A stretch of DNA of 64,000 nt, from assembly GCA_945877505.1 (NCBI GenBank), contig CAMDWT010000002.1, positions 35,453 to 99,452 of the forward strand. Direction: 5' to 3'. Positions 14,583-19,897 of this stretch are shown piece after piece; position 1 is the stretch's first letter, and each line of letters opens with the position of its first letter. A program made the translations under genes and the position numbers. Source of the stretch: Crenothrix polyspora. GTDB lineage: Bacteria; Pseudomonadota; Gammaproteobacteria; Methylococcales; Methylomonadaceae. A model generated the notes under the pieces. It made no database searches. It worked only from the letters and a program-made list of their open reading frames with translations, and was not told where the DNA came from.

Positions 14583-15312
14583 ACAACAAAAGAAAAACAG
14601 GCTAACAATACTGATTATTTTTGGATTAACTATTATTCCTTTTTTAATCGCGTTAGTTCTAAAGGAGAATCCCAGTTTGGTTAAGGGGACCACCAATACG
14701 GGTCAATTGATAGTTCCTCCTTTAGCGACACAATATAGCGATTTTATTGGCTTTGACGCATTCTCTGTTAAAAATATTAGTGAACTACTGGGGCATTGGT
14801 TAATTGTTAATGTAATTCCGGGCAATAACTGTAATGAGATATGTCTTGATGCATTACTTAAAACCAAGCAACTAAGGTTGATGTTAAATAAGGAGTTGCC
14901 ACGAACACGCCGTATCGCCATGATTTTTAAAGAGCCTCTTGAAGTTGATGCAAATGAATGGTGGCTAAAAGATACGCTTTTGTGGCGTCTACGTCGCACT
15001 GATAATAAGGAAGATAAGACGCTTTTATTGAGTTTTCTTCGGGAAGACCAGAAATTAGATGATAAGTTAATTGATAAGTTAATCGGTGAGGATAATCGCG
15101 AATTTTCTCTTAATTCAGATCTTATTAGAGTTAAACCTAGTTTAGAATTGAATAAGAAAATTGTCGCTATTCGGAAAGGAAATATACCAGATGGAATGTT
15201 ATTTTTGATTGATCCATTGGGTAATATAATGATGCAATATGAGGCAGGCTTTAATACTTATAAAGTGAAAGAAGATCTTATGCATTTACTTAAAATTTCA
15301 CAAATTGGTTAG
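14572..15312 (+). CDS. cox-cluster associated membrane-anchored protein, possibly thioredoxin-fold
   Basis: N-terminal TM anchor, C-terminal FLIDPLGNIMMQYEAG reminiscent of SCO/thioredoxin folds; position matches the PA0111-type hypothetical of Pseudomonas. Confidence 0.65.
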   Translation: MMNKQQKKNRLTILIIFGLTIIPFLIALVLKENPSLVKGTTNTGQLIVPPLATQYSDFIGFDAFSVKNISELLGHWLIVNVIPGNNCNEICLDALLKTKQLRLMLNKELPRTRRIAMIFKEPLEVDANEWWLKDTLLWRLRRTDNKEDKTLLLSFLREDQKLDDKLIDKLIGEDNREFSLNSDLIRVKPSLELNKKIVAIRKGNIPDGMLFLIDPLGNIMMQYEAGFNTYKVKEDLMHLLKISQIG

Positions 15313-17273
15313 TGGGAAATAACATGTTTAGAAAATTAACGTTATTTAGCTTTTTTTTAACGCTAATAATTATTGTATTAAGTTCTTGGTTTAGAACCTT
15401 GGTGGTTGATCAAACCTTAATTAGTGCAGGATTTATTGGTTTAGTAAAAGACACTATCTATGATTATTTACTGGTAACGTTAGCCTTATCAATATCGGTG
15501 GTGAGCGTACTTTCTTGGTGGCAAAAGTCAGGTAAAGTCCCAGCATTAATGACAACATTGCTTTTAGTTCTTTTGCTTGTCTTGCAAGCAACATTACTCG
15601 TTGTTACCAAAACGATAGCTGAAATGCCTCTTGTTATTGTGACTCATATTGTTTTGGGGCTGTCTACGTTTTGGTTGCTTTATTGGCTGTATTTAAGAGC
15701 TAATCCGTCTATAACGGGCTTAGTCAGTGCAAAAGAACCTGTTCGAACGGGTTTTGTAAATATGGCCCGATTGGCAATGTTTTTGTTAGGGTTACAAATT
15801 CTTTTGGGTGCTTGGGTTGGCGCTAATCATGCGGGTTTAGCGTGTAGCGGATTTCCCCAGTGTAATGGTCAATGGCTCCCTAGCGCTGATTACGAAAATG
15901 CGCTCAATTTAGTGAATGGAATAGTCTCTGGTTATACTGGCGTTATCTCTTTTGATGCTCAAGTAGCCGCTAACTGGTTGCATAGAATTGGCGCCTTATT
16001 AAGTTTTCTGTTGCTAAGTGCTGTAATGTTTAGTGCAACCAGTCTTTATTCTTCAAAACCAGTTAAAAAGGCTGGTTTATGGCTGGGTGGGTTACTGTTT
16101 TTACAAATTGGCTTGGCAATTATTGCTATTAATTTACAGATGCCTTTCTGGGCAGTCCCCGTTCATCAACTTTTAGCAGCCTTGCTAATGTTGCCGTTGA
16201 TTGCGATCAGTTTTTATAGTCGCTTTGCTTTTGAACAAACCAAGACCTCCGGCGAAATAAGGGTTACACCTGAGAAAAAGATTCCAGAGGCAAGCGGAGC
16301 ATCGGTTCCTGTAGAAACGACATTTGATGATATTTATGTTGAGCTTCCGGCTGAGTCTTTATATTTACGGCTTAAGTCACAGCTAAAACGCACTCGGTCA
16401 GGTTTAAGCGTTATTCTTGCTAGCTTGCCATTGGGGCAAAAAGGCATAAATGATGATTTACTGGAGGACATTGAGGCTGGATTGTTAATGGCTGATGTGG
16501 GCATTGATGCCACTACGGAAATTATCAATCGCTTAACAAAAAGCCTTGAACGACATCAGTTAAAAGATGGCTTGGCTGTATCAATAGCGTTAAAGCAGGA
16601 ATTGTTAAATATCCTCAAGCCTTGTAGCCTACCTTTACAGATACCAAAGCAAGATACTCCGTTTGTTATTTTGGTTGTGGGTGTGAATGGCGCAGGTAAA
16701 ACAACAACAATCGGTAAATTAGCCAAACGTTTGCAGGCTCAAGGCCATAGTGTAATGTTAGCCGCTGGAGATACTTTTAGAGCGGCAGCTGTTGAGCAGT
16801 TGCAAGTTTGGGGCGAGCGTAATGGCATTCATGTGGTTGCTCAGCATACAGGAGCAGATTCTGCTTCAGTTATTTATGATGGATTACAATCAGCAAAGGC
16901 TAAGGGTATTGATGTTCTCATTGCAGATACAGCAGGGAGACTGCACACGAAATCAAATTTAATGGATGAATTGAAGAAAGTAAAAAGGATTATGGGCAAA
17001 TTAGATGAACAAGCCCCGCATGAAGTATTATTGGTTTTAGATGCTGGAACTGGACAAAATGCGCTTTCACAGGCAAAGTTATTCAATGAGACTGTGGCTT
17101 TATCAGGATTGGTGTTAACTAAATTGGATGGTACGGCAAAAGGGGGCGTTATTTTTGCACTAGCTAAACACACAGGGATTCCTATTCGTTATATAGGGAT
17201 AGGTGAAGGCATCGATGATTTACAGGATTTTGATGCGGAATTGTTTGTTGATGCCTTGTTCGTCAAAGATTAA
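15312..17273 (+). CDS. ftsY: fusion: CtaA/COX15-like membrane domain (about codons 1-308) plus signal recognition particle receptor FtsY (about codons 330-653)
   Basis: Single uninterrupted ORF. N part: multiple TMs, GAWVGANHAGLACSGFPQCNGQWLP, NWLHRIGALLSF, VPVHQLLAALLM (COX15/CtaA C-half). C part: ADVGIDATTEIINRL, GVNGAGKTTTIGKLAKRL, AAGDTFRAAAVEQLQVW, ADTAGRLHTKSNLMDELKK, TKLDGTAKGG (FtsY NG). ATG at 15324 is an alternative start. Confidence 0.9.
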   Translation: MGNNMFRKLTLFSFFLTLIIIVLSSWFRTLVVDQTLISAGFIGLVKDTIYDYLLVTLALSISVVSVLSWWQKSGKVPALMTTLLLVLLLVLQATLLVVTKTIAEMPLVIVTHIVLGLSTFWLLYWLYLRANPSITGLVSAKEPVRTGFVNMARLAMFLLGLQILLGAWVGANHAGLACSGFPQCNGQWLPSADYENALNLVNGIVSGYTGVISFDAQVAANWLHRIGALLSFLLLSAVMFSATSLYSSKPVKKAGLWLGGLLFLQIGLAIIAINLQMPFWAVPVHQLLAALLMLPLIAISFYSRFAFEQTKTSGEIRVTPEKKIPEASGASVPVETTFDDIYVELPAESLYLRLKSQLKRTRSGLSVILASLPLGQKGINDDLLEDIEAGLLMADVGIDATTEIINRLTKSLERHQLKDGLAVSIALKQELLNILKPCSLPLQIPKQDTPFVILVVGVNGAGKTTTIGKLAKRLQAQGHSVMLAAGDTFRAAAVEQLQVWGERNGIHVVAQHTGADSASVIYDGLQSAKAKGIDVLIADTAGRLHTKSNLMDELKKVKRIMGKLDEQAPHEVLLVLDAGTGQNALSQAKLFNETVALSGLVLTKLDGTAKGGVIFALAKHTGIPIRYIGIGEGIDDLQDFDAELFVDALFVKD

Positions 17274-17938: not shown

Positions 17939-18958
17939 ATGAAGTATATTAATAAAAATCGTATTAAGAAAGACCCACCTATTAAGTCAGTAAAACAAGA
18001 GGTACGCCAAACTAAAACAGCGGGTGGAAATTTTGTCGATAAACTAATAGCTTATCGAGATCATCAAGTTCACGTTTTGTTTTCGAGTCTTAGTCGGCTG
18101 ATTGCTTCTCCCTTTACGACAGTAATGACTATTACTGTATTAGCTATCGCTATATCACTTGCGAGTGGTTTTTATATTTTAGTCGTCAATTTGCAACAAT
18201 TAACAGGCAATCTGGAAACTAGCAATCAAATTTCAATTTTTTTAAGAGATGATGTTTCTGATGCTCATGCGAAAAAATTAGTCGACACTTTTAAAGCCAA
18301 TGTTAATGTTCAGGAGGTTAAATTAATAACACGAGAGCAAGCATTAACTGAGTTTAAAAACTATAGTGGTTTTGGTGCTGCAATTAGTGTTTTGGAAACA
18401 AACCCTTTACCCATTGTCATTCAAGTATTGCCGAAGAATACCTTGGATGATAAGCAGGAACTGGGTAAGCTAATGGAAAGTTTTCAGCAGTCTCCAGAGG
18501 TTGATTTTGCTCAGATGGATTTGCAGTGGGTTGAACGTTTACAGTCTATTGTGGAGTTAGCTCGCTTGTTTGCAAATTTATTAAATATGCTATTAGGGGC
18601 CGCTGTGTTGTTTATTATTGGCAATACGATACGCTTAGAGTTACATACTCGAAGGGAAGAAGTGGTTATTGCAAAATTGGTAGGTGCAACGAATTCATTT
18701 ATACAGCGACCCTTTTTATACAGTGGTTTTTGGATAGGCTTTATTTCAGGTGTGTCGGCATGGTTTATAGTTGCTATAGGCATGTTGATCCTCAAACATC
18801 CAGTAGAAAAACTTTCTGGACTTTATGAAAGTGATTTTCAGTTAGTTTTTTTAAGTTTCGGCGAGACATTTATACTTATTTGTCTTTCATCGGCGCTCGG
18901 GGTTTTGGGTTCTTGGGCGGTACTTGTTTGTCAACTCCGCCACACAAGATTAGAATAA
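17939..18958 (+). CDS. ftsX: cell division permease FtsX
   Basis: Four TM FtsX architecture; downstream of ftsE. Confidence 0.94.
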   Translation: MKYINKNRIKKDPPIKSVKQEVRQTKTAGGNFVDKLIAYRDHQVHVLFSSLSRLIASPFTTVMTITVLAIAISLASGFYILVVNLQQLTGNLETSNQISIFLRDDVSDAHAKKLVDTFKANVNVQEVKLITREQALTEFKNYSGFGAAISVLETNPLPIVIQVLPKNTLDDKQELGKLMESFQQSPEVDFAQMDLQWVERLQSIVELARLFANLLNMLLGAAVLFIIGNTIRLELHTRREEVVIAKLVGATNSFIQRPFLYSGFWIGFISGVSAWFIVAIGMLILKHPVEKLSGLYESDFQLVFLSFGETFILICLSSALGVLGSWAVLVCQLRHTRLE

Positions 18959-18977
18959 AATTAGATGTAAAAAATTA

Positions 18978-19004
18978 TTAGCACTCTTATTTAGAGAGTG
19001 CTAG
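18978..19004 (+). promoter_or_regulatory. CIRCE element (HrcA operator) upstream of rpoH
   Basis: TTAGCACTC-N9(TTATTTAGA)-GAGTGCTAG; consensus TTAGCACTC-N9-GAGTGCTAA, one mismatch at the last base. Confidence 0.88.
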
Positions 19005-19039
19005 AATTAATACAAAGTTTATTTCTAAGGAGATACCAC

Positions 19040-19897
19040 ATGAGTAACGCTTTAGCTTTACCGGTAAATTTATCAGTTGGAACCTTTGATGCCTATTTAA
19101 ATTTGGTTCGGCAAATGCCCAGATTAACTTCTGAACAGGAGCGCGAATTAACCTTGAGATTTAAAGACGAAGGTGATTTAGAGGCGGCAAGAGAGTTGGT
19201 TATGACCAATTTACGTTTTGTTGTTCATGTTGCTAGAGGTTATAGCGGCTATGGTCTTTCTATGCCTGATATTATTCAAGAAGGTAATATTGGCCTTATG
19301 AAGGCTGTTAAACGTTTTGATCCTGATGTTGGTGTGCGCTTAGTTTCTTTTGCCGTGCATTGGATAAAAGCAGAAATTCACGAGTATGTGATAAAAAATT
19401 GGGGAATTGTAAAGGTTGCAACGACTAAGGCGCAGCGCAAACTTTTCTTTAATTTACGTAAATCTAAGAAAAACATTGGTTGGTTGTCGAATGACGAAGC
19501 CATGGCCATTGCAGCAGATTTAAATGTCGAGCTAAGTGATGTCTACGAAATGGAAAAACGTCTCGGTAGTCAAGATATGTCTTTTGATATGCCTGTCGAT
19601 GAGTCCACGGAAGAAAGTGGCACCTATCCAGCAAATTATCTTCATCAACACGGAACTGATCCCTCAATTTTGCTTGAAAATGCTGATTGGGAAGGACATG
19701 GACACGATTTATTGTCAGAAGCAATGGCGGAGTTAGATGCGCGCAGTTTTGATATTCTTTCAAGTCGTTGGTTGAGTGAGAAAAAAGCCACTTTGCATGA
19801 ACTTGCAGATCGGTACAATGTCTCTGCTGAGAGAATTAGGCAGTTAGAGCAAAATGCTATGAAAAAAATCAAAGCTGCCGTTGTTATGGCAGCCTAA
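19040..19897 (+). CDS. rpoH: RNA polymerase sigma-32 factor
   Basis: ALALPVNLSVGTFDAYL, LRFVVHVARGYSGYGLSMPDIIQEGNIGLMKAVKRFDPDVGVRL. Start placed at ATG 19040 (MSNALAL) with AAGGAG SD; the ORF-track start at 18998 lies inside the CIRCE element. Confidence 0.96.
   Translation: MSNALALPVNLSVGTFDAYLNLVRQMPRLTSEQERELTLRFKDEGDLEAARELVMTNLRFVVHVARGYSGYGLSMPDIIQEGNIGLMKAVKRFDPDVGVRLVSFAVHWIKAEIHEYVIKNWGIVKVATTKAQRKLFFNLRKSKKNIGWLSNDEAMAIAADLNVELSDVYEMEKRLGSQDMSFDMPVDESTEESGTYPANYLHQHGTDPSILLENADWEGHGHDLLSEAMAELDARSFDILSSRWLSEKKATLHELADRYNVSAERIRQLEQNAMKKIKAAVVMAA

Follow-up and report, generated by a model that had tools for sequence, protein, structure and literature searches.

We observed that a near-consensus CIRCE, a putative operator of the repressor HrcA, lies directly upstream of the sigma-32 gene rpoH in the window (the whole 64,000-nucleotide stretch of DNA analysed). 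HrcA very probably controls sigma-32 in this organism, repressing rpoH by denying RNA polymerase access to the promoter. Textbooks generally present HrcA and sigma-32 as alternative strategies against heat shock. An earlier note on this DNA had placed rpoH under HrcA and had called for a look at hrcA, at other CIRCE sites and at conservation upstream of rpoH in relatives. The presence of hrcA, order-wide conservation of the site, and its decay after hrcA loss with the -10 element kept all support that reading.

The full element reads TTAGCACTC-TTATTTAGA-GAGTGCTAG (Table 1). Its arms match the CIRCE consensus used for scoring (TTAGCACTC-N9-GAGTGCTAA) at 17 of 18 positions, with one mismatch, and 35 bp separate its end from the rpoH ATG at 19040. 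This is the sole site in the 64-kb window with at most three mismatches to CIRCE (0.02 expected from shuffles). Direct reading and the shuffle control thus confirm the match and spacing first given in the earlier note. The TAGAAT described there as overlapping the right arm is present (19002-19007), and the program-listed rpoH ORF does begin inside the element, at GTG 18998 in the right arm. Because ATG 19040, and not GTG 18998, has a ribosome-binding site, the CIRCE is non-coding.

Table 1. Features of the rpoH locus (window coordinates)
Feature	Position	Strand	Remarks
ftsX, upstream gene	17939..18958	+	stop 19 bp before CIRCE
A/T-rich block AAAATTA, directly 5' of CIRCE	18971..18977	+	per-base conservation 91-100%; possibly a proximal UP element
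CIRCE (putative HrcA operator)	18978..19004	+	arms 18978-18986 and 18996-19004, N9 spacer; kept in 80/80 named relatives
Weak -35-like TTAGCA (putative)	18978..18983	+	18 bp from TAGAAT
Extended -10 TGC-TAGAAT	18999..19007	+	TGC and TAG are CIRCE right-arm bases; motif kept in 23/23 hrcA-less or hrcA-pseudogene genomes
Ribosome-binding site AAGGAG	19028..19033	+	G-rich motif alike in relatives
rpoH (sigma-32), 285 aa	19040..19897	+	RpoH box QRKLFFNLR present

The rpoH product scored 392.6 bits against TIGR02392 (cut-off 323.1, profile search). The closest named RpoH loci belong to Methylococcales MAGs and Methylobacter species (best identity 95%), and the host is a Methylobacter-like methanotroph. 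pqqB, pqqC and pqqD (gene names by sequence reading) lie close to groESL, which is compatible with a methylotroph. Elsewhere in the window, a 653-aa ORF (15312-17273, + strand) carries a COX15/CtaA (heme A synthase) domain at residues 56-294 in frame with FtsY (SRP54 helical bundle and GTPase, residues 375-650). This fusion is real and conserved, because every one of the 65 relatives with a locus spanning the junction has it open; we found no report of it in the literature searched.

An intact hrcA is present in the genome (2.46 Mb, 99.75% complete); it scores 314 bits against TIGR00331 (cut-off 197, profile search) and has the Pfam HrcA and HrcA_DNA-bdg domains. The same search gave no hrcA match in the E. 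coli control genome. The exact inner CIRCE palindrome occurs three times genome-wide, compared to no occurrence of a reversed control pattern. At three mismatches or fewer there are likewise only three CIRCE-like sites, one each upstream of hrcA-grpE-dnaK-dnaJ, groESL and rpoH. groESL has a separate near-consensus promoter (TTGACA-16-TATCAT) followed by its CIRCE, and so does hrcA (TTGACA-17-TATTTT); these two sites come after the -10, unlike the rpoH CIRCE, so the rpoH operator appears to be laid out differently from both sister operators. Within the hrcA operon (L005), sigma-32-like promoters precede grpE and dnaK (CTTGAAT-N13-CCCCAT and CTTGAAC-N13-CCCCAT), so that dnaK may be reachable by both regulators.

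To assess conservation, we took the closest CIRCE match lying no more than 300 bp from the rpoH start in each named Methylococcales locus, with five shuffles per leader. All 80 loci carry a CIRCE with at most three mismatches, ending 29-38 bp before the start codon; 30 have no mismatch and 43 have one (range 0-3). Methylobacter tundripaludum SV96 and M. luteus are among the carriers. The best match in the shuffled leaders always had at least five mismatches. Where hrcA is intact, the arms are nearly fixed in relatives (97-100% conserved) and the N9 spacer varies freely, the pattern that would be expected of a protein-binding site.

We scored 151 genomes of the family for hrcA and for the rpoH leader, counting a site as kept if it had no more than a single mismatch, or if its inner arms were exact and lay at the usual distance. 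The rpoH CIRCE was kept in 115 of 119 hrcA-positive genomes, compared to 7 of 26 genomes without intact hrcA (Fisher P = 2e-14, uncorrected for kinship). Three of these seven also lack grpE and hence reflect assembly gaps, which corrects the count to 4/23. Of the 21 hrcA-less genomes that have a grpE locus, 20 offered 680 bp or more of readable sequence 5' of grpE, and an intact hrcA was absent from every one of them. The losses fall in at least six genera, five of which (g3, g8, g9, g20 and g26) also include members that retain both hrcA and an intact site. In genus g13, hrcA is gone from 11 of 11 sampled genomes, and no rpoH CIRCE remains there. These data suggest that the CIRCE depends on hrcA in evolution.

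Four genomes (G008, G057, G058 and G100) have a well-preserved CIRCE despite having no intact hrcA, which recent loss of the gene would explain. Remnants of hrcA, as expected of recent loss, were found in G008 (with stop codons), G100 (tail only) and G058 (a short C-terminal match). Among the hrcA-positive exceptions, G019 has no rpoH CIRCE and G025 (L191) has an 8-base spacer instead of 9, either a sequencing error or a genuine variant. In the g13 genomes (G013, G040, G063, G081, G096, G109, G119, G128, G137, G143 and G149), nearly all CIRCE-like sites have apparently gone along with hrcA, and rpoH and grpE are kept.

The same genomes point to the position of the promoter. In relatives, the right arm is usually followed by A and then nearly always by AT, giving TGC-TA[A/G]AAT, an extended -10. 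Across the 23 hrcA-less or hrcA-pseudogene genomes, identity falls to 57% in the left arm and to 59% in the right-arm GAG. All 23 nevertheless have TGnTAnnnT 29-41 bp 5' of the start codon, and this 23/23 is the informative figure since the 100% values of the TG and TA columns in this alignment arise by construction; G091 is probably out of register there. The motif occurs in 8% of shuffled leaders (22-60 bp before the start). Survival of the extended -10 while the arms erode argues that the operator lies inside the rpoH promoter, and its conservation suggests that rpoH is transcribed from this extended -10. The -35 is poor. The earlier note had named a start site downstream of the element, with no effect of HrcA, as counting against HrcA control. 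The start-site part does not hold, because with the operator lying across the -10, transcription is expected to begin immediately 3' of CIRCE. Read-through from ftsEX or promoters within ftsX could also feed rpoH, and repression need therefore not be complete.

In Bacillus subtilis, a CIRCE in the 5' UTR influences mRNA stability. The rpoH element, being an inverted repeat, could similarly act mainly as a stem-loop in the mRNA leader, affecting RNA stability or translation, if transcription began near 18963 or in ftsX; a promoter-like pair (10/12) is in fact present at 18928-18956. Such pairs occur 5' of CIRCE in just 3 of 80 relatives, however, and an upstream sigma-70 promoter with CIRCE in the leader was rejected as not conserved. 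An RNA role would also not depend on hrcA, whereas after hrcA loss the stem disappears and the right-arm extended -10 stays, so that the maintained promoter appears to lie inside CIRCE. We regard a leader function as very improbable. Chance or close kinship as the source of the palindrome is close to negligible. Shuffling the 64-kb window does yield one this near to the consensus about twice in 100 trials, but fixed arms beside a freely varying spacer, recurrence before RpoH proteins only 48-60% identical, and recurrence in 41 families of the class refute such an origin.

E. coli sigma-32 is controlled chiefly post-transcriptionally. If the same were true here, HrcA might bind the rpoH CIRCE without material effect, leaving a vestige or decoy, with sigma-32 set by translation and stability; rpoH evidently functions without the operator in the hrcA-less relatives. 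Yet the arms erode only after hrcA is lost, which implies selection on function, and no structured leader was found by folding, consensus folding or Rfam search. We consider this reading very improbable. RNA folding of 19013-19240 was no better than for shuffles (z = -0.08), a consensus fold of 21 sequences was weak and lay within the coding sequence (2 of 22 pairs with double changes), and Rfam gave no match above the gathering score. Folding thus lends no weight to an RNA thermometer of the E. coli type, although one may still act here, as that type sits in the coding sequence. Autoregulation of rpoH by sigma-32 was rejected: no sigma-32-like promoter lies within 440 bp upstream of rpoH, whereas grpE and dnaK do have such sites in front of them.

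Beyond the family, we searched the class with a strict pattern that required exact inner arms, an ATG and LRFVV codons. The rpoH CIRCE was found in at least 60 of 369 sampled gammaproteobacterial genomes and at least 41 of 182 families. These are lower bounds, as within the family, whose hrcA-positive members nearly all carry CIRCE, the strict pattern recovers just 67 of 151 genomes. All 30 class loci checked (30/30) encode RpoH, at the identities to the window protein given above. hrcA was present in 55 of the 60 genomes with an rpoH CIRCE, compared to 215 of 309 others (P = 2e-4, class sample). In the phylum sample, the strict combined pattern had no match outside Gammaproteobacteria; its LRFVV part is presumably blind to alphaproteobacterial RpoH, and this result therefore says nothing on Alphaproteobacteria.

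Overall, we favour a model in which rpoH transcription would start at an extended -10 promoter of sigma-70 type that interlocks with CIRCE. The right arm would supply the TGC-TA of the -10 and the left arm would occupy the place of the -35, so that HrcA on CIRCE would shut out RNA polymerase. On heat or protein-folding stress, unfolded protein would titrate GroEL and HrcA activity would fall, a mechanism of HrcA inactivation established for B. subtilis and others (review PMC6032397). The groESL, hrcA-grpE-dnaK-dnaJ and rpoH promoters would then be released together, and the extra sigma-32 would raise the remaining heat-shock regulon. The sigma-32-like sites before grpE and dnaK suggest that sigma-32 also reinforces the dnaK operon, and the resulting circuit would be a feed-forward arrangement. 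The site, the hrcA gene, the three-site regulon, conservation and joint loss are seen directly in the sequences, whereas that HrcA binds, where transcription starts, and which way and how strongly rpoH responds are what we infer from them. We are highly confident in the model as a whole, from the interlocked promoter through HrcA repression to joint release of the three operons on stress.

The arrangement shares the repressor gene, the operator and two of three targets with the classical HrcA/CIRCE regulon (B. subtilis type; groESL and dnaK operons), but its third target is a sigma factor gene and that operator appears to be embedded in the promoter. As in E. coli, rpoH lies downstream of ftsX and encodes an RpoH box. 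E. coli rpoH is controlled by multiple promoters, an RNA thermometer, and chaperone- and FtsH-dependent turnover; hrcA is absent there, whereas here CIRCE occupies the bulk of the space between ftsX and rpoH, and folding revealed no conserved structure in the leader. We found no paper on CIRCE at rpoH in Gammaproteobacteria in the literature searched. A 2003 study by Permina and Gelfand reportedly covers the HrcA regulons of beta-, gamma- and epsilon-proteobacteria and may already list such sites. In Helicobacter pylori, HrcA sites likewise overlap core promoter elements (PMC6032397). H. pylori has no sigma-32, and its HrcA works with HspR on chaperone operons. The CIRCE-rpoH link drawn in the earlier note stands but is not new: a motif search in Geobacter sulfurreducens had already predicted a CIRCE before rpoH (Rodionov et al. 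2004, PMC545781). The consensus CIRCEs reported there at rpoH, groESL and hrcA-grpE-dnaK-dnaJ form the same three-operon regulon, albeit in one species of a different phylum (current taxonomy) and by motif search. In the parts available to us, that account describes neither promoter overlap nor co-loss with hrcA (PMC545781). CIRCE at rpoH is thus not unique to this genome; its joint loss with hrcA, its apparent placement inside the promoter and its wide distribution go further than anything we found in print.

These results mean that the repressor HrcA very probably sits above the sigma factor in this organism. Tentatively, and at somewhat less than even confidence, HrcA may be the transcriptional master of sigma-32 across much of Gammaproteobacteria, in which case the two textbook systems would form one hierarchy and the E. 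coli scheme would have been derived after hrcA loss. The repeated natural loss of hrcA offers a ready comparison for the contribution of the HrcA layer. With the pattern present in 41 sampled gammaproteobacterial families, models of sigma-32 control built on E. coli may not apply generally.
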